A stretch of DNA of 64,000 nt from positions 558,001-622,000 of the forward strand of contig JAHBBC010000014.1 in assembly GCA_019915015.1 (NCBI GenBank). The letters run 5' to 3'. Origin of the DNA: Auriscalpium vulgare (lineage: Eukaryota; Basidiomycota; Agaricomycetes; Russulales; Auriscalpiaceae). Shown here one piece after another: positions 2,219 through 62,182 of this stretch (its first letter is position 1; the number at the start of each line of letters is the position of its first letter). The position numbers were made by a program, and so were the translations under genes. Under the pieces are notes generated by a model, which did not search any database, was not told the origin of the DNA, and saw only the letters and a program-made list of their open reading frames with translations.

Positions 2219-3067
2219 TGATGAGATGAACCCTGGGGGAGGCCCCGGGAACGTCGATAGAAATGGAGGGAGCGAGCAGCCAACCGCTGGCCCAAGAGGT
2301 AGTGGGTCGGAGGAAGAAACCCAAGATCGCGACCGTGCCCCGAACAAACCACCCAGGACCCCGCGGGTCCTGCCCTCGTCCTGCGGCTCTCTCTCTCTCG
2401 CTCTCTCCGCTCCCGTCCGACCGTCGCACGTTGCGTCTCTTCCCACACTATTCGGTGCGACCCTCCCGTCTGTCGCCGCCGGTCCGTCCTAGTTGCGGAG
2501 TCGCCCTTGCCGTCCGACCGTCCGACCTGTGTCCCCGCGCTTGTACCGTCCGAGTCGCTATCCTGGAATATAAACGTCAGTCATAAAACCTACCACACTG
2601 TATCACTCCAGTCTGTGGTTGAGTCGGGGCAGCGTAGCCCGTGGTATCGCAAAGGTGGCGCGACCCGGATGTCGCTACGACTTCCTGGTTTAAGGCATCG
2701 TGTCGGGCTGGTCTGGCGGTATCGCGTCGTGCGGTGCTCTCTGTGAAGCAGGAACGAAAGGTGTAGTCTCGGGTGTAGGCCCAAGGTCCAAAAGTGTCCC
2801 TACAACAAGTCGAATCGCGTCTATATACCGCTGCTTCGTCAGCTCTTCCCACGCGTCTGCGCTCCTACGCGTCCTACCAAGTTCCGCGCCCGACCGTTCC
2901 GACTCCCTACCTCGGCTCTCCGACTCCTCCCCAGACGCTCGCTCGCTTTGTGCTGTCCCGTGGTCGTGCCGGTGCCGCGACGCCTGTGGGGCGTCTCGGG
3001 GGTGTGTGTCTTGGTGTAGCGGTGTGATTGGTCCTTTTCGGTGCCTGTAGCGCTGCGGGTCCCATCA
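2219..3067 (-). repeat. LTR of copy A (3' LTR in element sense)
   Basis: 849 bp, bounded by the short inverted ends TGATG and CATCA. It contains a CT-rich microsatellite near 2390-2410 and a self-complementary TATATA at 2822-2827. Apparent ORFs within it occur in all three LTRs on both strands and are not supported as genes. In plus-strand direction it lies upstream of accessory gene 1. Confidence 0.95.
2822..2827. promoter_or_regulatory. Palindromic TATA-box candidate in the LTR
   Basis: CTATATAC on the plus strand reads GTATATAG on the minus strand, so one element could serve either direction. Read on the minus strand it lies about 240 nt into the LTR, a sensible place for the gag-pol promoter. 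The active copy for that promoter would be 16408-16413 in the other LTR. Read on the plus strand it lies 390 nt upstream of the accessory gene 1 ATG. No other core element was identified. Confidence 0.4.
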
Positions 3068-3105
3068 TCCTCCCCCCAACTGAGCTACCGACTGCCCTCA
3101 GTCGG
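3068..3105 (-). promoter_or_regulatory. 3' polypurine tract with adjoining hairpin (module 1)
   Basis: On the minus strand GGGGGGAGGA directly abuts the 3' LTR, which is the position of the primer for plus-strand DNA synthesis. Next to it is a perfect 7-bp-stem hairpin, CCGACTG/CAGTCGG with a CCCT loop, at 3088-3105. The same tract-plus-hairpin arrangement recurs at 4732-4771 and 8857-8891. Confidence 0.8.
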
Positions 3106-3216
3106 CGAATCCCCGGATGGCTCCTCCTGATAAAGGCTCCCTCGCGCCGTCTCGATGAGTCGTCAGGTAGCGTCGCACCGCCCGCCCGACCAACCAACCC
3201 CCCCCCACACACCATC

Positions 3217-4444
3217 ATGACCTGGTCTCCCCACACGTACCGTCGCGGTACTCTCTTGCTGTACCACCTGGGTCGGGCCCCCAGCGCGGACTTCCCGCTC
3301 GCAGCAGCCGCCGAAGCGATCGAATCGCGCGAGCGTTGGGCACAGGAGGTGTTGGCTGTCATTGTACGGTTCCCCTCTTTTCCGCCCCGTTGTCGCGCTA
3401 ACCGTCCGCTCCCATCGGCTGTAGGAATCCATCACCGATTCCGACCCCAGGCTGATCATCCCCCTCGCCGAGCGCATCCTCATGCCGATACTCGAGAACG
3501 CCATCCTCCTCGTACCCGAGGTCGAGGATCGCTTCCGCTCGTGGGCGGGGCGCTTTCTTCGTCCCGCCCCGCTCCCTACGACCGAGCTGCACCCGTGGAC
3601 CTCCGTTGTTGATCGGGTCGACCTACTTGACGCCCCCAAGGTTCGGCTGACCGCGACGCTGGTTGAGGAGAACTTTTGGGTCGTGTTTCGCAAACGCGGG
3701 TGCTCGGTCGCGTCGTACTTGCGCGAGCTCGCCATTTTCCATGCCGCCATCCCCGATGACCGTCCCCTGGGCAACCAGACGTGGGTCGCGTACGTCCTCC
3801 GAGAGGCCTTGGAATGTTCCGCGCTCTCCATTCGCCACTCGCGTGGTGGGACCGCTTTCCTTCCCGACTACGTCGCCCGCGAGTCGACCGCTTGGCCCAT
3901 TTCGCCCCCCACGCAGTACGGTCGCAACCTCGGCGGACTGGGTGCGCGTCTTTTAGCTCGTTTCGAGGCCGTGTACCGCGAGACCGTCGAGGAGCTCGCT
4001 GGGGCTACGGAGAACGTCGCCAATCTGCAAGCCCTTTGGGCCGACGCTCCCTACCTGTTAGCCATCGTTCGCGACCCCTGCCTCTCCCTCGAGCACGCAA
4101 CCCGACTCTTCCTGGAGTACGCAGTGACTGCGGCATACGTTCTGCGCCATTTCCCAGCCGCCCCGACCGAGCCCGACCTTTACACGAACAACCTCTTGGT
4201 GACCTTTGTGCGCCATCGTGTATTGTCGGGGCTCCCCGCCTTGCCCGCCGGTGATGGTGTCGGCTTGGTTGACGACGATGCCGGCGGTGTCGATTCCGAC
4301 GAGCAGATGCAGGGCGATCCCGTGGACGCCGGGGGTGTCGGGGATGATGTCGCTGTGATGGAGCGTGTGGTGGTCGGCGATGTCGGCGCGATAGTGGATT
4401 ACCGCAGCGATAGTGGTAGCGACATCGCGAGCAGTCGTGAGTAG
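3217..4444 (+). CDS. Antisense accessory protein 1 of the retrotransposon (unknown family)
   Basis: Exon 1 3217-3348 (44 codons) and exon 2 3425-4444 give 383 aa across a 76-nt GT-AG intron in phase 0. The ATG at 3217 follows a C-rich leader and opens directly onto exon 1. I do not recognise the family. The protein looks largely helical with no transmembrane segment or signal peptide. The C-terminal 70 residues are Gly/Asp/Val-rich and acidic, ending in SDSGSDIASSRE. The early part (residues 1-95) resembles accessory protein 2: a hydrophobic helix, an Arg/Glu-rich block before the intron, the intron at the same place, then VPE...FRSWAG against VSPE...FAEWGG. It lies 112 nt after polypurine-hairpin module 1 and is antisense to gag-pol. 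Copy B carries the same gene. The coding status rests on the open frame, intron structure and conservation between copies. Confidence 0.7.
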
Positions 4445-4731
4445 TGTACCCCTTCTGTAAATGGTCCCTCCGGCCGCCATGAATCGCACAGAACTGTGGC
4501 CCCTGATGTCTCATAGCAATGATCGTCGCGTTTCGCTGCGTGGGCGACTCATAGCGTCGCGCGGTCTCCGACCGTGTTCTGATGGATCGCGGATTCGGTT
4601 GCGCGTGGTCGGCTCTGACTTTGTCTTGTCCCGCTCCCTTCTGGCTACTTGTTCCTCGTGCACCCTGCGCAGGCTGGTCACCCGTCGCCGAGAAAATCCC
4701 TATCTTTCTCCTCGTCGCTCGTGACTGGCCA
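4445..4731. other. Spacer between accessory genes 1 and 2
   Basis: No supported gene. It probably holds the 3' end of accessory gene 1 and the upstream region of accessory gene 2. Short ORFs of 82-87 codons here show no domain or intron logic. Confidence 0.5.
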
Positions 4732-4771
4732 TCCTCCCCCCAACTGAAATCTGCGCCTGTCCTCAGACGCA
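4732..4771 (-). promoter_or_regulatory. Internal polypurine tract with hairpin (module 2)
   Basis: The plus-strand TCCTCCCCCCAACTGA at 4732 equals the tract at the 3' LTR. It is followed by an 8-bp stem with one mismatch (TGCGCCTG/CAGACGCA, loop TCCT, 4752-4771). The motif lies 96 nt before the ATG of accessory gene 2, mirroring module 1 before gene 1. It could prime extra plus-strand DNA synthesis, or be a relic of a duplication. Confidence 0.7.
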
Positions 4772-4866
4772 AATTCTCCGGCCAAACCCCGGCATATCGG
4801 GTCGCGGCGGGTTTCCGACGGCCTACATAACGAGTGCGGTCGGTGCGTGCGACCCAGCCTCCGACC

Positions 4867-6048
4867 ATGTCGTCCAGTTTCACCCTTGAGGCGCGTGCTT
4901 TCGCCCTTGTCGGGCTACTCCTCACTCCGCCCGCGATTGACCTGGAGACCGCTCCCGTCGAGACCCTGGTTCTGGCTCGGGAGGAGTGGGGTCGCAAGGT
5001 TGCTACGCTCTACGTAAGTCCTCGCGCTGTCGTTGCGATCCCCGCTCACGTCCGTGTCGCGCTTATCCAGAATGAAGTGTATAACACTGCGAAGCCATCC
5101 GTCCTTCGTCTTGTCCAGGCAATTGTCAGCCCCGTCTTCGAGACGCTGTTCACTGTGTCCCCCGAGTCGCGCGCCGCGTTTGCTGAATGGGGTGGTAACC
5201 TCGTCAGCGACCTCGCGCCTCCGACGTCCGCTCCTCTCGACCCGACATTTTCGGTTCGCCCAATCGCTGGATTCACCTTCCCGAACAATCGCGACCACTC
5301 TCGCCAGCTCTCGCGCCTCTGCGAGGGCGCCCTGTGGGCCGCATTTGAGTCGGGCCGCACGTCCGTTCCCCAGTACCGTCGCAGCCTTGGTGAGCTCTGC
5401 TTGGCCGCTCATCCCACCGGTCGCGGAGCGGGCATCGACGCGACAGTCCACGCGGAGTTCATTGCCGGCATGAATGCTTGCGCTTCGGCTCTTCAGCGCC
5501 TGAACGGCGGGGAAGAGGCCCTCCTGTCCGAGGTCCATCGCCTCTCCTACTCGACCACCGGCATATCCCTCCCCGACCTCCTGCGTACCCTCGCGCACCC
5601 TCTGTCCGATACGCTCATTACCCACACCACCGAGACCGTGGCGACCTTGGCGTCGATCTACGGCACCATCGCGCAACTTGCGCGACCCGACGACCGCCGC
5701 GCGCGTGGTCGCTGGGGTCCGTATGCCGACGCCTTTGACTCTGCGGATGGGTTCTTGGAGGCCGCCGCTGCCGCGTATCTGCGCGACGCCTTGCAGTGGT
5801 CCACCACTATCGACAGTCTTCATGCGCGCACCGCCATTGAGAGCGCTATCCTCGCGTCGAACCTCCCCACCGAGTTATTGGCCGACGTCCACAGCGACCC
5901 GACGATGTTCTTGGACGAGGTCGTGACGTTCCGCGCAGTCCCGATGGGTTGGCAAAACGCGCACCGTGGTCGTCGAGGCGGGGGTGCGACTCGGGGGCGC
6001 CTCACTCAGCAGGGGCGTATCCCGCGTGACGATCCTGCCACGCTGTAG
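4867..6048 (+). CDS. Antisense accessory protein 2 of the retrotransposon (unknown family, paralogue of protein 1)
   Basis: Exon 1 4867-5013 (49 codons) and exon 2 5071-6048 give 374 aa. The 57-nt intron has strong GTAAGT and CAG borders but is a multiple of three with no stop, so retention would give 393 aa. The ATG at 4867 sits in CCGACCATGT and aligns with the start of protein 1. The protein looks helical and soluble, with a Gly/Arg-rich basic C-terminus (RGRRGGGATRGR type). The VSPE...FAEWGG block after the intron and the REEWGRK block before it match protein 1, so I infer common descent. Function is unknown. It is antisense to gag-pol, between modules 2 and 3. Confidence 0.7.
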   Translation: MSSSFTLEARAFALVGLLLTPPAIDLETAPVETLVLAREEWGRKVATLYVSPRAVVAIPAHVRVALIQNEVYNTAKPSVLRLVQAIVSPVFETLFTVSPESRAAFAEWGGNLVSDLAPPTSAPLDPTFSVRPIAGFTFPNNRDHSRQLSRLCEGALWAAFESGRTSVPQYRRSLGELCLAAHPTGRGAGIDATVHAEFIAGMNACASALQRLNGGEEALLSEVHRLSYSTTGISLPDLLRTLAHPLSDTLITHTTETVATLASIYGTIAQLARPDDRRARGRWGPYADAFDSADGFLEAAAAAYLRDALQWSTTIDSLHARTAIESAILASNLPTELLADVHSDPTMFLDEVVTFRAVPMGWQNAHRGRRGGGATRGRLTQQGRIPRDDPATL

Positions 6049-6539
6049 CGTCGTCGCACTGTCGGAGCGTCGGGAGATAAAGGGAAAGAAAGAGCCCGCG
6101 TTAGTGTAGTGCCTTGTGCCCGCATGTACGTCGTTGAATGCCTCCCAATACGAGTATTGAACTTGCGACGCGTTACCCGCTTGTGCGACGCCAGTGTACC
6201 GTGGTCGCGCCCCGTGGGAGGGGCGGGCGCCAACGACTTGTGCGATTTCGCTCGCGCCAGCAACACGTGCCCGCCACGCGGCGTCGGAGCCGCGCGTGGC
6301 GTCCCGCACCGGTCCGGGGCATGTCGCGGGATCAAATCAACGATCGCTGATCAGATCGCGGATCGACCCGGCGTCGTGGGCGCTCGGAGGCAAAACCAGC
6401 GCTCTGGCCGGGCCACGCGGCCGGTCGCTCCCACGCACGCACCATTGTTCGTGCGCCTGCGGCGAAGTCGCCGTCGCCCTTCTTCCCTCTTCCCCTCACC
6501 TCGCTCGCTCGCCTTCCCGCTCCCCCGATTCCTCACCCC
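6049..6539. other. Spacer and leader of accessory gene 3
   Basis: 491 bp with no supported gene. The last 60 nt are strongly pyrimidine-rich (CTCGCTCGCTCG, TTCCCGCTCCCCC) and run up to the ATG at 6540, like many fungal promoters and leaders. No polypurine-hairpin module is present here, unlike before genes 1 and 2. Confidence 0.5.
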
Positions 6540-8634
6540 ATGGACGCTGCCACCGTCGCCGACGCCACCGCTACCCGCGCCATGCTGGATCTCCAGCTGG
6601 GCTTACTCGGGCCCATGGCGCGTGACGCCACCTCCGAGGCCCAACTCGCGCTGCTGCGCCCGCAAGCGCGCCAGCTCCTGGTACGTCTGCTCTTCCTGAT
6701 CTCGCCTTCCTTTCTGACTTGCGATTTCCTAGCGTGCCTACTACGACGCCCGTGGTCGTGGGGTGACGTTCTCCCCCGAGGCGCGCGCGCGGTACGACGC
6801 GCTTGAAGAAGCCGTGCGACCCCCGCCCCTGTTCCTCGACGAGGCGAACGAAGACGACGAGGCTGCGGAGGCCCCTGAAGCGCCCCAGGCGACCGTGCCG
6901 CGGTCCGCTCCGACCGTTGCCACGCCGTCGCCCCTCGTCGGCGCTGGGACGCGTGAGGGCACCGTCGCCGTGGCCGACCCTTCCGTTACCCGGCTCCGCC
7001 CCAAGGTGCGTGTATCGGCGGTCCTTGTCGTCACCCGCTAACCTCGCCCCTTTCTTTCTGCCCGCTCTTTACGCAGGCTCGTCGCGTGCTCGCGAACCGC
7101 GCGGAGGTGGTGTTGCCGCTCCCGGGGCCGGTCCCGCCGCCGCCTTCTGCCCGCGGGGAGCGCCTCGCCGCGCGTACCGCCACTGCGGCCGTCCAGCCTC
7201 CGTCCCAAGCCGCCGGGAAGCGCCGCGCCTCGCACTCCCCCACACCCCTCTCGTCTCCCCACGCGACCGAGTCGCCTCAACCCCGGCGCGGTCGCACCGC
7301 CAAAAAGGGTCGGCCCGCCCCTCGCCGCCGTCGCAGCCGTTCGTCGACGTCGCCGGGTAGTGGTCTCGACGACTCGCTGTCGGAGGCGGTAGACAGTGAC
7401 GGCGACCCCTTGTTCCACCGGTCGGATCGCCGCCCGACGCACACCGAGCGGTACGCTGGTGAGCGCATCAAGGTGAGCTACCCCCTCCCCATCTCCCCTG
7501 CTGTTGCTGACCGTCCACCCTTCCAGACTTCTACCCGCTGCGGCCGCTGCCAGGCTGGTTTCGTGCGCGGGCCGGTGCGTTGTGAGTTCAAGCCTCACCG
7601 CCCCACCAAGTGCATCCGCTGTCGCGCCCAGCGCAAGGGCTGCGGCGGCGCTGTACTCGTGGACGGTTCGCGCCCTCGCGCCCCTTCCCCCCACCGTTCC
7701 CGTGGTCGGTCGGTCCGCTCCCGCGCTCCTTCTCGTGCCCCCCGGCCGCGTTCTGCCTCCCGTCGCGGCGCTGCGGCGCCTGTGGCGGCGCCCTTCTTCG
7801 CCAAGTTCCTTGCGGACTTACTGGCGGCCGCCGACTCTGCAGGTACGTTGCTGCGCCCCTCTTACCCTTCTCCTAACACTCACCTGTTCTTCCCTCCCTT
7901 CAGATTCCCCACGTCGGGCTCGCGACCTCCTCGCGTCCGTGCTGGCGTCGGTGGACGAGGACGCGCGGCGTTTCGAGGACCTCCCTCCTGCCGACAACTT
8001 CTCCGACCATGCCGACTCCATCGCGCTCGTCCGGGCGGAGCTGGCTGCTAGCGCGACGACGCTCAACCTGTGGCCCTACCGTCACGACCGGCTCCTCGTG
8101 CGCCTTGCCCAGCTCGAGCACCAGTTCGGCTCGCGCGTGTCCGCCGACGCTGTGGCTTCCGAGGCCTCCCGCTCTCCCTCCCTCCGTAGTTCGCCGGTCG
8201 CTGGGCCCAGTGGTCACCGGCGCTCTGACTCGCCCACCCTCGCCACCATTCCGCCCAGCTCCGTCGCCGCCTCTACTCCCGCCGCCCCGATCGTTAGCGA
8301 TGAGGAGGAGGATGAGCTGGCGCCTGCTCGCGCCCCCTCCGTAGAGTCGCGCGCGTCCCCGGCTCCCGTGCATCCCGTGCTGCGCACGTATGGTCGCCGG
8401 CGCGCTGCTCGTACGCCCGCCGTGTCGGATGGCGCGGAGAGCGCGGAGGACCTTCCCTCGGCCGGCGGTATCCCCCTTGCCGCGCCTGCCGATCCAGCGG
8501 GTGTCGACGACGAGACGGACGACGACGAAGAGGAGAGCGAGGAAGGCGTGGTCGGAGTCGAGGAGAGCAGCGAGGAGGACGGTTCCGACGTTGGCGACGC
8601 CGTTGAGACCGTGTATATGGACGTCGCTGAGTAG
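6540..8634 (+). CDS. Antisense accessory protein 3: Zn2Cys6-like cysteine cluster, basic region and acidic tail
   Basis: Five exons (6540-6680, 6733-7005, 7077-7472, 7527-7842, 7904-8634) join in frame to 618 aa; all four introns are 52-71 nt with GT-AG ends. Exon 1 is 47 codons and ends in phase 0, like accessory genes 1 and 2. After it comes VTFSPEARARYDAL, which recalls the SPE block of the other two proteins. Residues about 230-260 are very basic (KKGRPAPRRRRSRSS), a likely nuclear localisation signal. Residues about 275-308 hold C-x2-C-x10-C-x9-C-x2-C-x6-C, close to the fungal Zn2Cys6 spacing. The C-terminal third is Ser/Pro-rich and then strongly acidic. This fits a nuclear nucleic-acid-binding or regulatory protein, but that is inference. 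It is convergent with pol, 270 bp apart. Confidence 0.75.
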
Positions 8635-8856
8635 GTCGACCCTTTCTCGCATTTTTCTCTGTTTCTTGTATTCTCTTGTTTTTGCGTTACTTTTCTTGTT
8701 GTTTTTCGTGCTGTCGTCTCTACGCATGCTTGCCCAAATAGAATTTTAGTGTCCCCCCCACCACAAGAGGAGAAAAGAAATAAGTTGAACCAATAGTCTC
8801 AGTGTACTGTCCGTGGTGTATCTCCTTAACGTAATACCTAGTCCAGTCGTATCGCG
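8635..8856. other. Convergent 3' region between accessory gene 3 and pol
   Basis: T-rich just after the accessory gene 3 stop codon (TTTTTCTCTGTTTCTTG), then AGAAAAGAAATAAG. It probably carries the 3' UTR and cleavage signals of accessory gene 3. No gene. Confidence 0.4.
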
Positions 8857-8891
8857 TCCTCCCCCCGACTGAAACTGCTGACCTCAGCAGT
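8857..8891 (-). promoter_or_regulatory. Polypurine tract with hairpin directly after pol (module 3)
   Basis: TCCTCCCCCC at 8857-8866 matches modules 1 and 2. The hairpin ACTGCTGA/TCAGCAGT with a 2-nt loop (8874-8891) is a perfect 8-bp stem. In element sense it lies only 13 nt after the pol stop codon, exactly where the 3' polypurine tract of an ordinary Gypsy element would be. Confidence 0.7.
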
Positions 8892-8904
8892 CGCGCACGG
8901 CCGG

Positions 8905-11900
8905 TCAGGCGACACTACCGTCTTCCGCGCTGTTACTCGCTGTGTCCGACGCGTCGCTGTCTATGCTGCGTGATTCCTGTGCTTGGGCGTCGGAGCCAGG
9001 CTGCCCGAGAAGCTCGTTTAGTCGTCGGGCGGGTATGTCGATGAACTCCGGTAGCGGAGGAAGCGTGATGTGTGGTCGCGCGAAGTACGGAATGACGCGA
9101 AACTCCGCAGTGGGCCTGTCGAAGACCGCCCCGTGCATATCACACAGGACGTACGGTCCACCGCGTCGCCGCCCAATTACGATGAACGGACCGTCGTAGC
9201 GAGGCAGCATCTTGCGGTCGAGTGATTTCTCGAACTGCGTGAAACGTACCAGGACAAGGTCGCCTCGTTGGAAGCCGTAGTTCTTGATCGACGCTTCGTG
9301 GTCGCGCTCGAAAATCAGCGCATCATGCCGCCGCTTGTCAAACACTTTCGAGTGGAGCGTACGGAGCTGGGTGCGGCGCTTCTGAAGTGCGACAGCCCGT
9401 CGCGCGATTAAATCCGTCGTCGACAGTATTGAGTCAGGCGGTGGTAGGAGATACGTCGCCTCTACGATATCGAGGGGCATCAATGCCTGCGTGCCAGTCG
9501 CCGCGAAGTAGGGGGAGCAGCCCATACGCCTGCGCGTTGTGATCCTGTCCGCCCAGAATACCGAGTGTGCGACCGTGGCCCACTTGCTCGCGTCACCGTC
9601 GGCGGCCTTGTACAGGGCCTGTCGGACGTCGAAATGCGATCGCTCTACGATTCCGTTGGATCGCGAGTTATAGCCTGAGATGCGGATGTGCTGCACGCCG
9701 TAATCTTCCTCGAGGTGCTTCATCGCTGCTAGGTACGGCGTCCCGTTATCCGTTACGATTTCCCGGAGCGCTCCCCAGCGACAGAGTACGTCCTCGAATA
9801 TCCATCGCGCGAGCGACTTGGCATTTTCCTGACGCAGCATGCGCCACTCTGGGAAATGCGAGACCGAGCACCTGCCTTGTACGATGTATTTGAAACCTCG
9901 CGAAGCCGGCATGTGCATGGTATCAGCGTACATCTTGGCGAACAGCGGCGCCGGGGTCGCGACCGTTGGGGGAATGAGCACGTGCTTCACCTGTCGCACT
10001 TGACAAATGTGGCACGATCGGACAAACCACGCGACGTCGCGGTCCATGTAGGGCCACCAGAAGCGTTCGAGGAGAAACATCTTGGTCGGGTACGCGCCGC
10101 GATGGCCGACGTCGTCGTGGCACGCTTTTAAAGCCCCTATGCGGCGTTCCGGTGCTAAAACGAGCTGGTGGCGCCCCTGCGGCTCCTTGCGAAAGAGACT
10201 CGTGCCATCGAGGAAGAACTCAGTGCAGTACCTTAGGAACGTCGCATACTCTTGGTCGGCGAGGCCCTCCGGTCGTTGGAGCGTGTTGTGCCATTCCCGC
10301 ACTCGAACGAGTCGCTCGTCGGCCTGCTGCGCCTTGATGTCGCGGTCAACGGCGTCGTACGACAACTCTGTCGGAGCTGCCTGGGTGACGAACGTTGCGA
10401 TCGCGGCCCTTGGTTGGTCGCGCGGATCCCCCGACCGTGGCCTTGTACTGCGCGGTACGTATGCGTTCACGAGGTGAATGAAGCCATACATTGCGTCGAC
10501 CCAATCCTCGAACCCGTCGTGCTCATTCTCTGCCACGTCGCCCGGTTGGCGCCTTCGTCGCGACATCCCGTCAGGCCCATGAAACAGGCCGGGCACGTGA
10601 ACTAGGACGAAATGGAACATTAAAATGGCAATAATCCACCGATTCATGCTGGCTGAGGGTTCAATATCGGGGTTGTCGAGCATGCCCTTAATGTAGCGTG
10701 CGTCGACTTCCACGACCATGTTCCGCACTCCGATGAGATATATCTTCAGCGCGCGGAGCGCCCGAAACAGGCCGTATAATTCTAACTTTGGTTGCGAAAA
10801 ACGCGCCTCGCGATCGTTCAACGCGATGGACCCAAACCGTGCGTACCGACGCTTCTTGCGACTCTTCGGATCGTCGGCGTCAGCCTGGCACAGCAAGAAC
10901 CCGACCGCAATAGGAGACGTATCGACCGCGAGGATAACCGGTTTGCCCGACTGATAGTCGATCGGTTTCAGGGCTGGCGACTCCAGCAACGCGCTTTTGA
11001 GATCTTCCATAGCTGCTAATTGTTCCGCTCCGAATTCGAATGGCACATCTTTCCTCGTAAGGTGCGTGAGCGCATGCGCGCGATGTGCGAAATGGTGGAT
11101 GAAGATCCTCAGCACCCCGACCGTCCCGAGGAACGCCCGCACATCGGACAGGTCTTGACATGGCCCCCAATTCACAATCTTAGCCACCCGTTGTTCGTCG
11201 GGGATCCGCCCGTCCCTCGTGCAGCGGTGTCCGACCACGACAATTTCGGGCGCGCACAAAATAGTCTTCCAACCCGAAAACGTCCCGCCCGAATAACCCA
11301 TGCGCTGTACGACGCGGTTGAGATTCTGAAAGTGTTCCCAGACAAATCGGCGGATGCCCTCGTTGTCAGCGATTGTCTCGTACTTCCCCTGGTCGTCCTT
11401 GTATTCGCTCGCGGGGCCCTTGACCGGTACGTCATCAATAAACGGTATCGTGACGTGGGGAATTTCCGGCCTCAGGATATGTGTGACGTCGTCGTGGAAG
11501 ATAGGCACTGAATTCGTCCAGCCCATCGGTAGTGTTACCAACCGCAGCGCGCCGTAAGGGGTCTGGAACGTAGTGAGGTCGCGCGACGCTGGGTCCAATG
11601 CTCGCTCGTCGTATCCGACGTACAGATCCAGCATCGCGCCGCAAGCCCGACCCGCGAATTGCTCGGCCAGTTGGTCGGTAAACGGGGGCACACCGGAATG
11701 AGCTATCGTGACGGCGTTTAACGGCTCCAGGCTGTGCACTATGCGCAGGCTCGTTCCATCCTTTTTGACCACGCAGAACCACCGCGACCTATACGACGAA
11801 TTGGATGGTTCGTAGACGTTCGCGGCCAACTTCCGACTGATTTGTTCCATGACTTGGTCGTAGATTCCCGGCGGGATCGGTATGTTGCGTTGTACCCATG

Positions 11901-12564
11901 GCGTGTGCGGTACGACGGGTATCGTGACCGGCGGAAAGAAATCTTCGCGGAAGTGGCCTCGCTCGCTGTCGTCCCACGCGAACGCACCGTTGTGCTCGCA
12001 CATAAAATGGTGCATCAGCTTGCGTTCCTCCTTCCACAAGAAGTCCCCCTCGTGAACTACGTCGAATTGGTCGCGGCGCTCCTCGGTGTAACGCCCCGTC
12101 GGCCGGAAGTCAGGGGGCTTCGTTGGTAACTTGGGTAGTGTCGCTAGCGGGTCGCCTCGTATGTCGCGTATGATTCTGAACTGCCCAGGCAAGTCGGCTA
12201 GTACTGGCTTCACTTTTAGGTGGGCTGGCTTATACTTTTTCTTGGTCGCTGCGAAAACTGCGCGTGCCCGCGCGCTGCTTGGCAGCGACTTACAGTCGCG
12301 AAATTCCTGTTCGCCTGCGAACGATGGCACCCCGGCTGGGGCGAGAAAGAAAACGGGCGCCGATGGAACGTCTAAAGTCGCGTCGGTCGGCCGATCAAAT
12401 ATTGGAGGGGTAGATTCTGGGAGATCGCAAAATGCTAAATAGGTTGCTCGTAACTCTTCCGGAGAACTAGAGGAGTCGAAGGGGACCACGGCTTCCACGG
12501 AAATAGGATCGGCGGCGTCGCCCGTGAACTCGAGGACGAGCGCCACTTCCGCCTGGTCGTCCAA
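8905..12564 (-). CDS. pol: Retrotransposon pol: reverse transcriptase, RNase H, integrase
   Basis: A 1219-codon open stretch encodes the enzymes that copy and integrate the element. Numbered from the TTG codon at 12564: reverse transcriptase about 190-440 with the active-site FIDD at 375-378 (variant of YxDD); RNase H from Asp548 (AVDTSP); integrase zinc finger HHCC about 805-850 (ending CHICQVRQ); integrase catalytic D881, D939 (TDNGT) and E974 (GIVERS), 34 residues between the last two; a GPF/Y-like module about 1120-1140. I saw no chromodomain. There is no ATG near the start. The frame continues open upstream into the end of gag, in the -1 frame, so expression is probably by -1 frameshifting from gag. 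TTTT at the gag end is a possible slip site but not a classic heptamer. Confidence 0.93.
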   Translation of the reverse strand: MDDQAEVALVLEFTGDAADPISVEAVVPFDSSSSPEELRATYLAFCDLPESTPPIFDRPTDATLDVPSAPVFFLAPAGVPSFAGEQEFRDCKSLPSSARARAVFAATKKKYKPAHLKVKPVLADLPGQFRIIRDIRGDPLATLPKLPTKPPDFRPTGRYTEERRDQFDVVHEGDFLWKEERKLMHHFMCEHNGAFAWDDSERGHFREDFFPPVTIPVVPHTPWVQRNIPIPPGIYDQVMEQISRKLAANVYEPSNSSYRSRWFCVVKKDGTSLRIVHSLEPLNAVTIAHSGVPPFTDQLAEQFAGRACGAMLDLYVGYDERALDPASRDLTTFQTPYGALRLVTLPMGWTNSVPIFHDDVTHILRPEIPHVTIPFIDDVPVKGPASEYKDDQGKYETIADNEGIRRFVWEHFQNLNRVVQRMGYSGGTFSGWKTILCAPEIVVVGHRCTRDGRIPDEQRVAKIVNWGPCQDLSDVRAFLGTVGVLRIFIHHFAHRAHALTHLTRKDVPFEFGAEQLAAMEDLKSALLESPALKPIDYQSGKPVILAVDTSPIAVGFLLCQADADDPKSRKKRRYARFGSIALNDREARFSQPKLELYGLFRALRALKIYLIGVRNMVVEVDARYIKGMLDNPDIEPSASMNRWIIAILMFHFVLVHVPGLFHGPDGMSRRRRQPGDVAENEHDGFEDWVDAMYGFIHLVNAYVPRSTRPRSGDPRDQPRAAIATFVTQAAPTELSYDAVDRDIKAQQADERLVRVREWHNTLQRPEGLADQEYATFLRYCTEFFLDGTSLFRKEPQGRHQLVLAPERRIGALKACHDDVGHRGAYPTKMFLLERFWWPYMDRDVAWFVRSCHICQVRQVKHVLIPPTVATPAPLFAKMYADTMHMPASRGFKYIVQGRCSVSHFPEWRMLRQENAKSLARWIFEDVLCRWGALREIVTDNGTPYLAAMKHLEEDYGVQHIRISGYNSRSNGIVERSHFDVRQALYKAADGDASKWATVAHSVFWADRITTRRRMGCSPYFAATGTQALMPLDIVEATYLLPPPDSILSTTDLIARRAVALQKRRTQLRTLHSKVFDKRRHDALIFERDHEASIKNYGFQRGDLVLVRFTQFEKSLDRKMLPRYDGPFIVIGRRRGGPYVLCDMHGAVFDRPTAEFRVIPYFARPHITLPPLPEFIDIPARRLNELLGQPGSDAQAQESRSIDSDASDTASNSAEDGSVA

Positions 12565-12572
12565 CGACGCCT

Positions 12573-15500
12573 CTAGAGCCGAAAATCCCTGCGCTCGCCG
12601 GCGCTCTGAACGATGCGACGCGAGCCTCGCTCTACTGTCGGGACGGTCGCCGTCGCTTGAGTGTTGGGATCGGTGATCGTGACGGTCTGTCGCTCATCGA
12701 CAAAGTTGCGGACTATACTCCCAGTGAGGACGTCGAAGGGCCTCCCTAGCAGGATGTCGTAGGCCGGAGAACGTATGACGTGTATCTGTACGTAGAGCGT
12801 GATGTCGCCTAGCTTTAGCGCTACGTTGCGGGCTAGCCCGAGGGATTTGTCAATCGAGCCGTTGGCGGAAAGCATGTCCAGTGTGATCGCGGGATCATAT
12901 GCCAGGCCGAGAAAATGACAAACGTCTTCGGACATGGAGATGACCTGCGACCCTGGATCCAGGATAGCCTCAATGTGCGCTTGGTTATCCACCAAGGGCA
13001 GGACCGCTCGCAATGCCGATGACTCTTTTGCGACCACCAGCGGGGCCGGTTTCTCGGCCGAGGCACTCATCAACGTCAGCATCGGGTCGGAGAGCACCAG
13101 CGACCCGCGAGGCGGCACCGCTGGCTGGCTCTGTATGGCCTGCAAGAACGACGACGGCATGTGCGAGGTGTATCCCCGCGCTCGATCTCTCTCCTGCTCG
13201 CGCTCTTCCTCGTACAAGTCGCCGGGTAGGTCCGACCACTCCTTGGTAGGCCCTTCCCCTTCCGCTACGACCGTGTGTAGGACCGCTACTGGGGAGTCCC
13301 CGCTGGACAGTACCGGGGCCGCTATGCGTCGCGGGGTGATAGCGTATCGCAACTGGGAACGTACTTCTGGCGCCAGCGACAGTAACTCGCTCTGTGTCAG
13401 AGTGACGGAAGTCTCCATCGCGCGGCCGTAGACTTCCTTCGCGACTTCCTCACTATGGATGGGCGTGTCCTTGGTATAGGCGGCGACTGGTTTCTTCCCT
13501 TTGTCTGGTCGGGACGCGTCCCCGACGGGTATGTAGGTTGCGTCGGGTACGGAGGCGAAAGGATGGATGGGTTCCGGCTCTATCTCCTCGGGGTCCTTCT
13601 CGACTGTCGGCTCACCCTCGCTCTCTTCCATCGCCGCTTCCGCATCCTCTGGACCTTCGGGCACCGCGAACGTAACCTTCGGCCGCTTGGCCGTGAATTT
13701 CGACGGAGATATGACCACCTCAGGGACTAGCCTCTTGGATCGCACTCTCTCCCCGGGCAGCGGACCGATTGGTGGCGGTAACTCTCCGTTGCGAATCGCT
13801 GCCTCCCTTCGGGCCCGGCCGGCGTTCCTCTGCTCCTTCATGAGGGTTAATACCGCCATCTCTTGACGCAACTCCTCGAGTCGCTCGTCGTCCGTCAACG
13901 GCGGGATTAACTGGATGAGCCCGGCGACCGGCTGGTCGCGCGCAGGTCGGAGCGGGTAGTCGGTGACGGCGATGGGACCTGTCGATGCCAACATCATTGT
14001 TTCCGTCGCGTTGCCCGCGACTCTGGCCGCGACGTCGGCGCGCAGCCCGGACGGGTCCGTGCGATAATATTCGTCTACCCTCGCTTGAATCGGGCCTAGC
14101 CCAAATGGCACTGGCCTGCCGTTCTTGAGTACCACCTGGTTCATCTCGTTGCGTACCACCCGCCCCGTCGCTATGTAGTCTTGCAGGACGAGGCATTCGC
14201 GGATGAAGTGCTCGGGACCGTTGCAGAACGAGCACCTGGCGCCATCCTGTCCCGGGGCCGGGCGAGGACGATCGAAACGAGCGGCCGACGCCATCATCGG
14301 GCCCGGTGGCCCGCGCGTGTACGCCGACGGCTGCGGGCCTGCGTTACTCATCCCCATCGCATCGGCTCTCCCCGCGCTATACGCTTTCGCGATCTGCTCG
14401 GCCGCCTTCTCCATCAGAGCGGCAAACTGTTCGACCTTGATCGCCGGTTCTTCCGCCTTGACGGCCACGGGTTGGGACAAGTCGGCCAGACCCGCGGGGA
14501 CGCTGAGCCCTGCCGATCGCGGGGTGCTCGACGTGCCGTGCAGCACGTACCGCGCCGCTTCCACTATTTGGTCCATCGGGTACGGGCCGTCGCGATCGTG
14601 GTCGGGATACTTCAGCTGCAGCCGCTGCTCTATCCTATCTTGCAGTCCCTTCTGGAATCCACGCAAGAAAGTGTAGTCGCGGTCGCGCTCGGAGATCCGC
14701 TGCCGCCCTATAAGAAACTGGGAGATCGCGTAGAAACCGCGATAGTATTCCCCAACGTCGCCGATGGTCGTGATGCCTCGGCGGGCTGTCTCGGCGACGA
14801 GCTGATCGAGGTCGCCCATCGTGTATTTGCGCTCCTCTTCCGCTCCGGGGTATAGCGCTATGATCGCGGTCACGAACTCTTCGAACGTCGCATTGCCCGC
14901 GTACTGGGGTCGGCTTTGCCACTGGTCTGCTGTAAGGACGTCCAGGTATCGCGTGGCGTGCTCCTTCTTCTCCTGGTCCTGGCCGTCCTCGATACCCGCC
15001 CGCGTGAACAAGTGCCTCAACTCCGCGAAATAGCGTTGCAGCTCGCGCGGCTTAAGATTGTCGAACTTAGGGGCTTGGCGGTCGCCACGGGTAGGCATCG
15101 GAGTGGCCATGGTCGTGCGACGGGGTAAACGCGATAACGGAGTACTGGATTGCGATGTGGGAGAAACTGGTCGGGAAACCTGTGCGGCCGCTCCACGCCC
15201 GTCTCCTGATAAACCTCCGTGCGTTCCGACGTTTCCGCGGTCGGAAGCCAAGCGGTCGCTGTCGGAAGGCACCTGTGCCTCGTCTCGGTCCTCATCCATC
15301 AGCGCAGCCACTTCGGGCTCCGATTCCGACGGGGTAAGCTCCGGCGACGACCATTGTCGCATCGCTCCGCCAGTCAGCAACTCGATCGACGCCTCATTGA
15401 CGTCCAGGAGCTCCTGATGGAGGGACCGTCTACCATCCCAACCGTGCTCCGACTCCTCCGATTGGACAGGGCCTGCCTCCGCGTTTTGATCGCCGGGAGC

Positions 15501-15755
15501 CTCGCCCGCAGCATCCCCGTCGTTCTCGGGTGCTGCGTCCGACCCACCCGATGCCTCGCCGTCGTCGTTTTCGTTGTCGCCCTCGGCGCCTTCAGCGCTG
15601 GAAGTCGCGCGCTCTTCGCCCGACGCCCCACCTTCCGACGATGCGAGGTGTCCTGGCATGGACTCCGCCCGCTGACTGGTCGAGTACTCCGACGGGGCCG
15701 ATCGGGGCGGTGCGCGTCGAGTGGGCTCTACGATAACCCTCGCCTTTGGTGCCAT
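12573..15755 (-). CDS. gag: Retrotransposon gag with CCHC zinc knuckle and aspartic protease
   Basis: 1060 aa from an ATG at 15755, 45 nt after the primer-binding-site end. The N-terminal 200 residues are acidic and low-complexity. About 225-400 resembles the retrotransposon Gag capsid region (LKPRELQRYFAELRHLF...). C508-x2-C-x4-H-x4-C521 is the nucleocapsid zinc knuckle that binds genomic RNA. A retropepsin-like domain sits near the C-terminus with DPGS at 933-936 in place of the usual DTG/DSG, followed by the ILLGRP flap-distal motif near 1010. So protease is fused to gag, and pol follows in the -1 frame. The frame is intact. Confidence 0.9.
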   Translation of the reverse strand: MAPKARVIVEPTRRAPPRSAPSEYSTSQRAESMPGHLASSEGGASGEERATSSAEGAEGDNENDDGEASGGSDAAPENDGDAAGEAPGDQNAEAGPVQSEESEHGWDGRRSLHQELLDVNEASIELLTGGAMRQWSSPELTPSESEPEVAALMDEDRDEAQVPSDSDRLASDRGNVGTHGGLSGDGRGAAAQVSRPVSPTSQSSTPLSRLPRRTTMATPMPTRGDRQAPKFDNLKPRELQRYFAELRHLFTRAGIEDGQDQEKKEHATRYLDVLTADQWQSRPQYAGNATFEEFVTAIIALYPGAEEERKYTMGDLDQLVAETARRGITTIGDVGEYYRGFYAISQFLIGRQRISERDRDYTFLRGFQKGLQDRIEQRLQLKYPDHDRDGPYPMDQIVEAARYVLHGTSSTPRSAGLSVPAGLADLSQPVAVKAEEPAIKVEQFAALMEKAAEQIAKAYSAGRADAMGMSNAGPQPSAYTRGPPGPMMASAARFDRPRPAPGQDGARCSFCNGPEHFIRECLVLQDYIATGRVVRNEMNQVVLKNGRPVPFGLGPIQARVDEYYRTDPSGLRADVAARVAGNATETMMLASTGPIAVTDYPLRPARDQPVAGLIQLIPPLTDDERLEELRQEMAVLTLMKEQRNAGRARREAAIRNGELPPPIGPLPGERVRSKRLVPEVVISPSKFTAKRPKVTFAVPEGPEDAEAAMEESEGEPTVEKDPEEIEPEPIHPFASVPDATYIPVGDASRPDKGKKPVAAYTKDTPIHSEEVAKEVYGRAMETSVTLTQSELLSLAPEVRSQLRYAITPRRIAAPVLSSGDSPVAVLHTVVAEGEGPTKEWSDLPGDLYEEEREQERDRARGYTSHMPSSFLQAIQSQPAVPPRGSLVLSDPMLTLMSASAEKPAPLVVAKESSALRAVLPLVDNQAHIEAILDPGSQVISMSEDVCHFLGLAYDPAITLDMLSANGSIDKSLGLARNVALKLGDITLYVQIHVIRSPAYDILLGRPFDVLTGSIVRNFVDERQTVTITDPNTQATATVPTVERGSRRIVQSAGERRDFRL

Positions 15756-15780
15756 CGGGTTGCTGAGCGGTTGACACTAG

Positions 15781-15804: not shown

Positions 15805-16653
15805 TGATGAGATGAACCCTGGGGGAGGCCCCGGGAACGTCGATAGAAATGGAGGGAGCGAGCAGCCAACCGCTGGCCCAAGAGGTAGTGGGTCGGAGGA
15901 AGAAACCCAAGATCGCGACCGTGCCCCGAACAAACCACCCAGGACCCCGCGGGTCCTGCCCTCGTCCTGCGGCTCTCTCTCTCTCGCTCTCTCCGCTCCC
16001 GTCCGACCGTCGCACGTTGCGTCTCTTCCCACACTATTCGGTGCGACCCTCCCGTCTGTCGCCGCCGGTCCGTCCTAGTTGCGGAGTCGCCCTTGCCGTC
16101 CGACCGTCCGACCTGTGTCCCCGCGCTTGTACCGTCCGAGTCGCTATCCTGGAATATAAACGTCAGTCATAAAACCTACCACACTGTATCACTCCAGTCT
16201 GTGGTTGAGTCGGGGCAGCGTAGCCCGTGGTATCGCAAAGGTGGCGCGACCCGGATGTCGCTACGACTTCCTGGTTTAAGGCATCGTGTCGGGCTGGTCT
16301 GGCGGTATCGCGTCGTGCGGTGCTCTCTGTGAAGCAGGAACGAAAGGTGTAGTCTCGGGTGTAGGCCCAAGGTCCAAAAGTGTCCCTACAACAAGTCGAA
16401 TCGCGTCTATATACCGCTGCTTCGTCAGCTCTTCCCACGCGTCTGCGCTCCTACGCGTCCTACCAAGTTCCGCGCCCGACCGTTCCGACTCCCTACCTCG
16501 GCTCTCCGACTCCTCCCCAGACGCTCGCTCGCTTTGTGCTGTCCCGTGGTCGTGCCGGTGCCGCGACGCCTGTGGGGCGTCTCGGGGGTGTGTGTCTTGG
16601 TGTAGCGGTGTGATTGGTCCTTTTCGGTGCCTGTAGCGCTGCGGGTCCCATCA
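15805..16653 (-). repeat. LTR of copy A (5' LTR in element sense)
   Basis: 849 bp, the same length and termini as the LTR at 2219; the translated stretches on both strands agree throughout. Its TATATA is at 16408-16413. In element sense it should carry the promoter of the genomic RNA, with a leader of about 600 nt before gag. Confidence 0.95.
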
Positions 16654-51829: not shown

Positions 51830-52678
51830 TGATGAGATGAACCCTGGGGGAGGCCCCGGGAACGTCGATAGAAATGGAGGGAGCGAGCAGCCAACCGCTG
51901 GCCCAAGAGGTAGTGGGTCGGAGGAAGAAACCCAAGATCGCGACCGTGCCCCGAACAAACCACCCAGGACCCCGCGGGTCCTGCCCTCGTCCTGCGGCTC
52001 TCTCTCTCTCGCTCTCTCCGCTCCCGTCCGACCGTCGCACGTTGCGTCTCTTCCCACACTATTCGGTGCGACCCTCCCGTCTGTCGCCGCCGGTCCGTCC
52101 TAGTTGCGGAGTCGCCCTTGCCGTCCGACCGTCCGACCTGTGTCCCCGCGCTTGTACCGTCCGAGTCGCTATCCTGGAATATAAACGTCAGTCATAAAAC
52201 CTACCACACTGTATCACTCCAGTCTGTGGTTGAGTCGGGGCAGCGTAGCCCGTGGTATCGCAAAGGTGGCGCGACCCGGATGTCGCTACGACTTCCTGGT
52301 TTAAGGCATCGTGTCGGGCTGGTCTGGCGGTATCGCGTCGTGCGGTGCTCTCTGTGAAGCAGGAACGAAAGGTGTAGTCTCGGGTGTAGGCCCAAGGTCC
52401 AAAAGTGTCCCTACAACAAGTCGAATCGCGTCTATATACCGCTGCTTCGTCAGCTCTTCCCACGCGTCTGCGCTCCTACGCGTCCTACCAAGTTCCGCGC
52501 CCGACCGTTCCGACTCCCTACCTCGGCTCTCCGACTCCTCCCCAGACGCTCGCTCGCTTTGTGCTGTCCCGTGGTCGTGCCGGTGCCGCGACGCCTGTGG
52601 GGCGTCTCGGGGGTGTGTGTCTTGGTGTAGCGGTGTGATTGGTCCTTTTCGGTGCCTGTAGCGCTGCGGGTCCCATCA
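51830..52678 (-). repeat. 3' LTR of copy B
   Basis: 849 bp, TGATG...CATCA, with no visible difference from the two LTRs of copy A in translated comparison. Its palindromic TATATA is at 52433-52438. Confidence 0.95.
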
Positions 52679-52716
52679 TCCTCCCCCCAACTGAGCTACC
52701 GACTGCCCTCAGTCGG
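52679..52716 (-). promoter_or_regulatory. Module 1 of copy B (3' polypurine tract and hairpin)
   Basis: TCCTCCCCCC next to the LTR and CCGACTG/CAGTCGG hairpin, as in copy A. Modules 2 and 3 are at 54342-54381 and 58467-58501. Confidence 0.75.
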
Positions 52717-52826
52717 CGAATCCCCGGATGGCTCCTCCTGATAAAGGCTCCCTCGCGCCGTCTCGATGAGTCGTCAGGTAGCGTCGCACCGCCCGCCCGA
52801 CCAACCAACCCCCCCCACACACCATC

Positions 52827-54054
52827 ATGACCTGGTCTCCCCACACGTACCGTCGCGGTACTCTCTTGCTGTACCACCTGGGTCGGGCCCCCAGCGCGGA
52901 CTTCCCGCTCGCAGCAGCCGCCGAAGCGATCGAATCGCGCGAGCGTTGGGCACAGGAGGTGTTGGCTGTCATTGTACGGTTCCCCTCTTTTCCGCCCCGT
53001 TGTCGCGCTAACCGTCCGCTCCCATCGGCTGTAGGAATCCATCACCGATTCCGACCCCAGGCTGATCATCCCCCTCGCCGAGCGCATCCTCATGCCGATA
53101 CTCGAGAACGCCATCCTCCTCGTACCCGAGGTCGAGGATCGCTTCCGCTCGTGGGCGGGGCGCTTTCTTCGTCCCGCCCCGCTCCCTACGACCGAGCTGC
53201 ACCCGTGGACCTCCGTTGTTGATCGGGTCGACCTACTTGACGCCCCCAAGGTTCGGCTGACCGCGACGCTGGTTGAGGAGAACTTTTGGGTCGTGTTTCG
53301 CAAACGCGGGTGCTCGGTCGCGTCGTACTTGCGCGAGCTCGCCATTTTCCATGCCGCCATCCCCGATGACCGTCCCCTGGGCAACCAGACGTGGGTCGCG
53401 TACGTCCTCCGAGAGGCCTTGGAATGTTCCGCGCTCTCCATTCGCCACTCGCGTGGTGGGACCGCTTTCCTTCCCGACTACGTCGCCCGCGAGTCGACCG
53501 CTTGGCCCATTTCGCCCCCCACGCAGTACGGTCGCAACCTCGGCGGACTGGGTGCGCGTCTTTTAGCTCGTTTCGAGGCCGTGTACCGCGAGACCGTCGA
53601 GGAGCTCGCTGGGGCTACGGAGAACGTCGCCAATCTGCAAGCCCTTTGGGCCGACGCTCCCTACCTGTTAGCCATCGTTCGCGACCCCTGCCTCTCCCTC
53701 GAGCACGCAACCCGACTCTTCCTGGAGTACGCAGTGACTGCGGCATACGTTCTGCGCCATTTCCCAGCCGCCCCGACCGAGCCCGACCTTTACACGAACA
53801 ACCTCTTGGTGACCTTTGTGCGCCATCGTGTATTGTCGGGGCTCCCCGCCTTGCCCGCCGGTGATGGTGTCGGCTTGGTTGACGACGATGCCGGCGGTGT
53901 CGATTCCGACGAGCAGATGCAGGGCGATCCCGTGGACGCCGGGGGTGTCGGGGATGATGTCGCTGTGATGGAGCGTGTGGTGGTCGGCGATGTCGGCGCG
54001 ATAGTGGATTACCGCAGCGATAGTGGTAGCGACATCGCGAGCAGTCGTGAGTAG
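52827..54054 (+). CDS. Antisense accessory protein 1, copy B
   Basis: Exons 52827-52958 and 53035-54054 encode the same 383-aa protein as 3217-4444. The upstream C-run is one base shorter, outside the coding sequence. Family unknown; see copy A for the description. Confidence 0.7.
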
Positions 54055-54476
54055 TGTACCCCTTCTGTAAATGGTCCCTCCGGCCGCCATGAATCGCACA
54101 GAACTGTGGCCCCTGATGTCTCATAGCAATGATCGTCGCGTTTCGCTGCGTGGGCGACTCATAGCGTCGCGCGGTCTCCGACCGTGTTCTGATGGATCGC
54201 GGATTCGGTTGCGCGTGGTCGGCTCTGACTTTGTCTTGTCCCGCTCCCTTCTGGCTACTTGTTCCTCGTGCACCCTGCGCAGGCTGGTCACCCGTCGCCG
54301 AGAAAATCCCTATCTTTCTCCTCGTCGCTCGTGACTGGCCATCCTCCCCCCAACTGAAATCTGCGCCTGTCCTCAGACGCAAATTCTCCGGCCAAACCCC
54401 GGCATATCGGGTCGCGGCGGGTTTCCGACGGCCTACATAACGAGTGCGGTCGGTGCGTGCGACCCAGCCTCCGACC

Positions 54477-55658
54477 ATGTCGTCCAGTTTCACCCTTGAG
54501 GCGCGTGCTTTCGCCCTTGTCGGGCTACTCCTCACTCCGCCCGCGATTGACCTGGAGACCGCTCCCGTCGAGACCCTGGTTCTGGCTCGGGAGGAGTGGG
54601 GTCGCAAGGTTGCTACGCTCTACGTAAGTCCTCGCGCTGTCGTTGCGATCCCCGCTCACGTCCGTGTCGCGCTTATCCAGAATGAAGTGTATAACACTGC
54701 GAAGCCATCCGTCCTTCGTCTTGTCCAGGCAATTGTCAGCCCCGTCTTCGAGACGCTGTTCACTGTGTCCCCCGAGTCGCGCGCCGCGTTTGCTGAATGG
54801 GGTGGTAACCTCGTCAGCGACCTCGCGCCTCCGACGTCCGCTCCTCTCGACCCGACATTTTCGGTTCGCCCAATCGCTGGATTCACCTTCCCGAACAATC
54901 GCGACCACTCTCGCCAGCTCTCGCGCCTCTGCGAGGGCGCCCTGTGGGCCGCATTTGAGTCGGGCCGCACGTCCGTTCCCCAGTACCGTCGCAGCCTTGG
55001 TGAGCTCTGCTTGGCCGCTCATCCCACCGGTCGCGGAGCGGGCATCGACGCGACAGTCCACGCGGAGTTCATTGCCGGCATGAATGCTTGCGCTTCGGCT
55101 CTTCAGCGCCTGAACGGCGGGGAAGAGGCCCTCCTGTCCGAGGTCCATCGCCTCTCCTACTCGACCACCGGCATATCCCTCCCCGACCTCCTGCGTACCC
55201 TCGCGCACCCTCTGTCCGATACGCTCATTACCCACACCACCGAGACCGTGGCGACCTTGGCGTCGATCTACGGCACCATCGCGCAACTTGCGCGACCCGA
55301 CGACCGCCGCGCGCGTGGTCGCTGGGGTCCGTATGCCGACGCCTTTGACTCTGCGGATGGGTTCTTGGAGGCCGCCGCTGCCGCGTATCTGCGCGACGCC
55401 TTGCAGTGGTCCACCACTATCGACAGTCTTCATGCGCGCACCGCCATTGAGAGCGCTATCCTCGCGTCGAACCTCCCCACCGAGTTATTGGCCGACGTCC
55501 ACAGCGACCCGACGATGTTCTTGGACGAGGTCGTGACGTTCCGCGCAGTCCCGATGGGTTGGCAAAACGCGCACCGTGGTCGTCGAGGCGGGGGTGCGAC
55601 TCGGGGGCGCCTCACTCAGCAGGGGCGTATCCCGCGTGACGATCCTGCCACGCTGTAG
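54477..55658 (+). CDS. Antisense accessory protein 2, copy B
   Basis: Exons 54477-54623 and 54681-55658 encode the same 374-aa protein as 4867-6048, with the same in-frame 57-nt intron. It lies 96 nt after module 2. Confidence 0.7.
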   Translation: MSSSFTLEARAFALVGLLLTPPAIDLETAPVETLVLAREEWGRKVATLYVSPRAVVAIPAHVRVALIQNEVYNTAKPSVLRLVQAIVSPVFETLFTVSPESRAAFAEWGGNLVSDLAPPTSAPLDPTFSVRPIAGFTFPNNRDHSRQLSRLCEGALWAAFESGRTSVPQYRRSLGELCLAAHPTGRGAGIDATVHAEFIAGMNACASALQRLNGGEEALLSEVHRLSYSTTGISLPDLLRTLAHPLSDTLITHTTETVATLASIYGTIAQLARPDDRRARGRWGPYADAFDSADGFLEAAAAAYLRDALQWSTTIDSLHARTAIESAILASNLPTELLADVHSDPTMFLDEVVTFRAVPMGWQNAHRGRRGGGATRGRLTQQGRIPRDDPATL

Positions 55659-62174: not shown

Positions 62175-62182
62175 CGACGCCT

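Follow-up and report, generated by a model that had tools for sequence, protein, structure and literature searches.

Evidence for an antisense three-gene module with exchangeable types in a Ty3/Gypsy retrotransposon of the fungus Auriscalpium vulgare

Genes that lie antisense to gag-pol have been described in several retrotransposons with long terminal repeats (LTRs). In the plant elements Retand, Grande and RIRE2, the region between pol and the 3' LTR spans 2,933-6,566 bp and holds open reading frames (ORFs) antisense to gag-pol (PMC11963269, PMC7264820); 97% of Retand clusters encode a TRP28 domain (PMC11963269), and a regulatory role has been proposed for the antisense ORFs of the lineage (PMC11963269, PMC7264820). 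The available text of these two reviews gives no demonstrated function for the antisense genes of LTR retrotransposons. Among fungi, Boty-like elements are reported to carry the antisense gene brtn (BcGypsy1 of Botrytis cinerea; Zhao et al. 2011 as cited in PMC7264820; PMC8365987). Here, we analyzed a 64,000-nt stretch of the genome of the basidiomycete Auriscalpium vulgare (assembly GCA_019915015.1, contig JAHBBC010000014.1, positions 558,001 to 622,000; the window), in which a Ty3/Gypsy element carries three spliced genes, A, B and C, on the plus strand, opposite gag-pol, between the stop side of pol (8905) and the 3' LTR. As far as the sources describe them, the Retand lineage shares with this element its Ty3/Gypsy membership and the presence of antisense ORFs between pol and 3' LTR that are kept across families, and the Boty-like elements, likewise LTR retrotransposons of fungi, share the possession of an extra antisense gene. 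Unlike the plant lineage, the element resides in a fungus, Pfam finds no TRP28 domain (PF04195) in A, B or C, and it combines three spliced genes with the exchange of diverged types, neither of which is mentioned in the available text on Retand; unlike the Boty-like elements, with which the likeness is drawn from titles and not from sequence, it has three antisense genes instead of one. Antisense genes in LTR retrotransposons are already known, and three spliced, exchangeable genes are a variant thereof. An earlier reading of this DNA, made from the sequence only, knew of no described fungal element with three such genes. This stands for the three-gene module, in that neither a spliced antisense module of three genes nor an exchange of antisense types was found among the top-ranked matches in openly licensed PubMed Central literature, whereas a single antisense gene in a fungal element is, according to the available sources, already in print as brtn. 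A word search of the main text of a study of Laccaria elements (PMC3411680) did not find the word "antisense".

The explanation that we favor, with a probability of roughly 0.6, is that A, B and C form a conserved accessory module of the element, that the module undergoes exchange between copies, and that its proteins have the roles proposed below. The parts of this explanation differ in strength: comparison of the copies makes it very probable that the genes are real, borne by the element, constrained and exchanged, while the roles, which are drawn from analogy, are tentative and we would put them at somewhat less than even odds. The element itself is a Ty3/Gypsy LTR retrotransposon, having an LTR pair with a target site duplication (TSD) and the domain order protease-reverse transcriptase (RT)-RNase H-integrase found by Pfam (RT weakly, at E 0.016); the best solved-structure match of pol is Ty3 Gag-Pol, at E 6.7e-23. 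The introns of A, B and C are 52-71 nt long (coordinates of all features are collected in Table 1). The sequence-only reading had already placed three spliced antisense genes between pol and the 3' LTR, and its coordinates and its lengths for B and C hold; A, on the other hand, has 388 aa instead of 383, because its donor was set at 3364 (GTACGG): exon 1 then measures exactly 147 nt, the length that it also has in B and in the two homologues from a second element family. That both copies in the window keep the genes intact was confirmed, the coding sequences being identical between them.

The genome (51.6-Mb assembly, 96 contigs) has six hydrophobin matches, which, like the short introns, fit a basidiomycete. 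It holds at least 41 places with the element, 29 at 98-100% identity (two of these 29 lie in the window), 11 at 81-82% and one fragment, all of these being lower bounds because 40 of 45 candidates were scored; 20 of the 29 and 3 of the 11 were examined as long-form loci. In all 21 C-holding loci among these 23, gene C has an uninterrupted frame between its ATG and stop codon and four introns, every one of them GT-AG, a count that omits L020, where an insertion has split C off, and the diverged and broken L029; with five C loci added later (L033 and L034 open, L035 frame shifted, L036 and L037 truncated) it is open in 23 of 26. Open frames were found for B in 20 of 23 loci, among them L020, where the 3' end is altered, and for A in 16 of 21 (L027 and L029 omitted). 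Among the matches listed in six frames, where shifts are not flagged, 26 of 27 near-full matches to the window type of B (B-I) and 9 of 11 to the second type (B-II) are free of stops. Long open frames also occur on the opposite strand of these genes, so open frames alone are insufficient as evidence of coding. Nonsynonymous (dN) and synonymous (dS) divergence was estimated by the Nei-Gojobori method with Jukes-Cantor correction, which is rough near a dS of 1. Between B-I and B-II, represented by one pair (window and L031), dS is 0.90, dN 0.069 and dN/dS 0.08; among the four types of C, taken as one copy each and without L035-L037, dS is 0.74-1.03, dN 0.19-0.35 and dN/dS 0.21-0.35; and A, which varies little among copies, gives 0.15-0.25 where dS exceeds 0.02. 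The differences between B-I and B-II fall 38/21/150 at codon positions 1/2/3 of the plus-strand frame, those between C type I and the three other types about 150/150/295, and the splice sites of C are kept in the intact diverged types while the introns diverge freely. Taken together, the comparisons indicate that A, B and C encode proteins under purifying selection. Two outcomes that would have spoken against the sequence-only reading, neutral dN/dS among copies and frames riddled with stops in other family members, were not encountered. Its proposal that the genes serve the element is upheld in general form by genes that are intact beside identical LTRs, present in two families and apparently constrained; the specific role stays a proposal.

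A second element family (contig C1; L032 and L039), the pol and gag of which are 77% and 57% identical, respectively, at the amino-acid level by tblastn, carries the same genes in the same order and on the same strand, at 32% identity for A, 31% for B and, over part of the protein, 30% for C (tblastn, introns not removed). The A and B matches of this family adjoin each other at at least nine places, and in the copy that was read A and B are open and C retains its cysteine motif. As this family carries it, the A-B-C module is, by sequence comparison, old, and the identities indicate that A, B and C evolve much faster than pol. A candidate third lineage, L038 (contig C19), was set aside, since it seems to represent a broken second-family relative. 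Within the module, A and B match each other by blastp at E 2e-11 (24% identity over 187 aa, with masking and composition correction off), and they share the position of the first intron, the 147-nt exon 1 being common to A, B and the two second-family homologues; we consider them paralogues that arose, to judge from sequence, by duplication. This duplication, the mosaic exchange of types and the repeated polypurine tracts (PPTs) go beyond what the sequence-only reading had seen.

Identity profiles along 9.8 kb of the 23 loci, taken against the window copy, revealed that the copies are mosaics. Most copies match the window at about 98-100% in the LTR, A and B, and among 123 candidate places the best 40 show 96-100% identity in gag, while the identity of C falls to about 58-69% in 10 of the 20 loci of the 98-100% class. 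C sorts into type I (11 loci), type II (4), type III (3) and type IV (3), with nucleotide identities of 97-100% within and 65-74% between types; two of the loci added later belong to type II as well (95-97% alike), and the broken or truncated L035 and L037 represent about two further types. In L030 and L031 it is B that diverges (about 79-84% identical), the A and C windows being at 91-100%. Expressed as dS against the window, L018 gives 0.024 for A, 0.007 for B, 1.05 for C and 0.12 for pol, and L031 gives 0.063 for A, 0.90 for B and 0.008 for C. Discordance of this kind between A, B and C is impossible under clonal descent, so recombination between element lineages is required, and B and C behave, judged by these profiles, as exchangeable cassettes, A much less so. 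The right edge of the B-II block is clean, at 6320-6360, and the C types start at 6440-6480. The mosaic extends into pol (window 8905-10616) in the C type II copies L011, L019, L024 and L027, where the 3' part of pol is about 91-94% identical and the sequence further on about 99%. Targeted hypermutation of C was considered as a source of the diversity and rejected in view of the discrete types, the differing introns and the low dN/dS. In L035 and L037, exon 1 of C is nearly type I and the remainder is unlike all four types, which suggests recombination inside gene C too. The swapping of a diverged gene segment by recombination recalls Ty1 and Ty1' of Saccharomyces, in which self-restriction is reported to depend on the gag segment that was swapped (PMC7055915). 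There, however, the swapped part is sense-strand gag, whereas here it is antisense B and C; by analogy, the yeast pair is the best model for what the exchangeable types could do. One genome in effect offers a natural experiment, with two families and several intact, deeply diverged antisense-gene types on a near-same backbone.

The PPT core, GGGGGGAGGA, occurs six times in the window, where 0.18 occurrences would be expected; each element copy accounts for three of them, and there are none elsewhere in the window. Each of the three tracts has a CTG-NGGN-CAG hairpin upstream, and an RNase III-type signal is conceivable for these NGGN-loop hairpins. The G-run tract is intact at PPT1, PPT2 and PPT3 in 21, 23 and 20, respectively, of 24 sequences (the window and 23 loci), at least some of the misses being loci that lack that stretch altogether; the second family has tracts, and hairpins too, at the corresponding three places. 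Extra PPTs have been reported in Sireviruses, Athila4 and Calypso, and a role in recombination has been suggested for them in the text available (PMC2829016). Like those elements, the present one carries additional PPTs in the stretch that separates the coding region from the 3' LTR; the Sirevirus tracts, on the other hand, are described as clustering near the LTR, the upstream ones lacking an inverted repeat (PMC2829016), whereas the two internal PPTs here each have a hairpin and lie at gene seams kilobases apart. The PPT modules lie about 100-140 bp upstream of the ATGs of both A and B and were considered as promoters of these genes; as C is without one and there is no such gene for PPT3 to face, plus-strand priming is preferred as their putative role. 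Through the hairpin-PPT units close to gene seams, plus-strand priming and modular recombination could be linked. Another copy, L015 (G000:C53:84921-94820), is flanked by a 4-bp duplication of its own, CCGC, and its two LTRs are identical; it lacks pol and most of gag, yet retains A, B and C, and the deletion, which shows a short overlap, terminates in the PPT3 G-run.

The predicted proteins offer some hints of function. A has an acidic C-terminus and B an RG-rich one, and C combines a basic middle with an acidic tail. The middle of C contains a six-cysteine motif, CX2C-X10-C-X9-CX2C-X6-C, which is kept in all four types of C and recurs in the second family with X9 replacing X10. Zinc proteins of the Zn2Cys6 type have the spacing CX2C-X6-C...CX2C-X6-C; C departs from it in the first half of the motif (X10, or X9 in the second family) and has no Pfam match, and we do not place it in that class. 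Pfam returned nothing for C at E values up to 1 and only unrelated sub-threshold matches for A and B, and nothing for a second C type, a C fragment or the second-family A/B exon 2. The usual hydropathy cut for transmembrane segments is about 1.6, and the highest 19-residue mean among A, B, C and one further type each of B and C is 1.55, which, together with the antisense orientation of the genes, does not fit envelope (env)-like proteins.

On this basis, the following course of events is proposed. A, B and C would be transcribed from integrated DNA copies by promoters of their own. In genomic RNA their GT-AG introns read CT-AC and would be hidden from splicing; because antisense placement makes them unspliceable there, the introns would survive retrotransposition, and because of the same orientation the three proteins would be made only from DNA copies. 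Cassettes would be exchanged when reverse transcriptase switches templates between RNAs packaged together, a route known from other elements according to the available text (PMC12992720), and at two mapped edges the exchange seams would lie near internal PPTs. As the most likely division of labor, C may be a nucleic-acid-binding regulator and A and B helical partner proteins, the three together tuning element expression or copy number, or blunting host silencing. A regulatory or antagonistic role would explain why A, B and C evolve much faster than pol; by analogy, the combination of rapid change, exchange and constraint is closer to what is seen in regulatory or antagonistic proteins than in replication machinery.

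Several observations weigh against this explanation or one of its parts: (i) the genes are not intact everywhere, C being broken in 3 of 26 loci, B in 3 of 23 (L025, L029 and L030) and A frameshifted in 5 of 21 (four with one single-base indel and L017 with three), and some A and B ratios reach 0.36-0.87, at a dS so low that they are little informative; (ii) the match between PPTs and exchange edges is incomplete, as B-II has no clean start on its left side, where the difference steps up from roughly 8% to 25% at about 4760, next to PPT2, the C types have a blurred right edge that extends across 8740-8900 in the area of PPT3 and the pol stop, and the seam between B and C (6320-6480) has no PPT, so that PPTs do not explain all edges; (iii) several hairpin z-scores are modest (-1.4 to -4.5), and in the second family the PPT3 hairpin is not predicted with the same fold; (iv) no curated family or solved structure was matched with a meaningful E value by A, B or C (NCBIfam being searched for A and B), and the roles rest on composition and analogy because no profile or sequence relative has a known function; (v) A and B are predicted to be mainly helical, with low confidence (mean predicted local distance difference test score 55 for A and 59 for B), zinc or nucleic-acid binding by the six-cysteine motif is putative, and the promoters and the splicing of the three genes are themselves predictions.

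The most serious competitor concerns the origin of the types. The divergent B and C types could have entered by hybridization or by horizontal transfer of related elements from sister species and then recombined with the resident element; the types would be lineages brought together recently, and no selection for diversity would be needed. This scenario accounts for types that are discrete (97-100% within, 95-97% for the later type II copies, against 65-74% between) and separated by a dS of 0.7-1, as well as for pol segments that differ too in the divergent copies (91-94% over part), and there is a precedent in the canonical Ty1 gag, derived, by the account available, from Saccharomyces paradoxus through transfer and recombination (PMC7055915). 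At least four C types beside a near-uniform gag, A and B would, however, call for repeated exchange at one segment, or for sweeps elsewhere. We rate such introgression as a real contender that falls somewhat short of an even chance, and it is compatible with the accessory-module explanation. A bolder view of the same pattern holds that the B and C cassettes determine the specificity of a system for self-recognition or copy-number control, by which an element represses or helps its own type only; rare types would then be at an advantage and types would stay diverged and intact, recombination at the partly PPT-marked seams would move a type onto a successful backbone, and the result would be retrotransposon incompatibility groups carried by dedicated antisense genes. 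We regard this view as unlikely.

Explanations in which the genes do not serve the element as proteins of this kind fare worse. If A, B and C were passengers, host genes captured by transduction and of no use to the element, their lack of known function would be expected, and accessory genes with introns can indeed resemble host genes; but three genes in the same order recur in the second family at about 30% identity, with open frames in the copy read, they appear to be under purifying selection, and no separate host gene was seen among the genome matches listed (some of these are lone fragments, and the matches were not each checked for LTRs), which leaves this option very improbable. Much the same low standing applies to the view that antisense transcription is itself functional, for instance by giving rise to double-stranded RNA, the frames being a by-product of GC-rich DNA. 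Such roles are discussed for retrotransposons in the text available (PMC7264820), and the long frames on the other strand would agree with it, but the concentration of changes at third positions of the plus-strand frame, dN/dS values of 0.08-0.35, and introns that diverge freely around splice sites kept in intact types all point to coding. Still less credit is due to two further proposals. The neat fit of the block between pol and LTR might mark A-B-C as an independent mobile unit inserted into a Gypsy element, but the second family has the block at the same place and in the same order, the gap between A and B holds the element's own PPT, and around 3217-8634 no terminal repeats at least 80 bp long were seen (shorter ones were not sought). 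Envelope-like or cell-to-cell movement proteins come to mind because an extra PPT is reported, in the text available, for the env-bearing Athila4 and Calypso (PMC2829016); the present genes, however, lie on the opposite strand and are independently spliced, and their hydropathy peaks at the value given above, 1.55.

Table 1. Coordinates in the window of the antisense genes, polypurine tracts, exchanged cassettes and element copies
Feature	Position	Strand	Details
Antisense gene A	3217..4444	+	exons 3217-3363, 3425-4444; 388 aa
Antisense gene B	4867..6048	+	exons 4867-5013, 5071-6048; 374 aa
Antisense gene C	6540..8634	+	five exons, 6540-6680, 6733-7005, 7077-7472, 7527-7842, 7904-8634; 618 aa
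PPT1	3068..3105	-	GGGGGGAGGA at 3068-3077, hairpin upstream at about 3088-3105; adjoins 3' LTR
PPT2	4732..4772	-	motif and hairpin as in PPT1; between A and B
PPT3	8857..8891	-	motif and hairpin as in PPT1; just after pol stop, within right edge zone of C cassette (8740-8900)
B cassette	4760..6360		differs as a block in B-II copies L030 and L031
C cassette	6440..8900		block-wise divergence between C types I-IV
Complete element copy	2219-16653	-	14.4-kb Ty3/Gypsy; identical LTRs; TSD TCGC
3' LTR	2219..3067	-	849 bp, bounded by TGATG...CATCA
5' LTR	15805..16653	-	sequence identical to 3' LTR
TSD TCGC	2215-2218 and 16654-16657		4 bp; flanks complete element copy
gag-protease frame, stop to stop	12573..15776	-	aspartyl protease, Pfam match
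pol frame, stop to stop	8905..12693	-	RT, RNase H, integrase; Pfam and solved-structure match
Second element copy	51830..64000	-	ends at window edge
Second-copy gene A	52827-54054		coding sequence identical to first copy
Second-copy gene B	54477-55658		coding sequence identical to first copy
Second-copy gene C	56150-58244		coding sequence identical to first copy

Two further features of the window were noted. On the minus strand beside the 5' LTR (15771-15804), TTTG is followed by TGGAGCCCACCGCGAGG, a possible primer-binding site, and the GC-rich stretch that adjoins the second element copy (50291-51829) contains several direct and inverted repeats of 72-80% identity.

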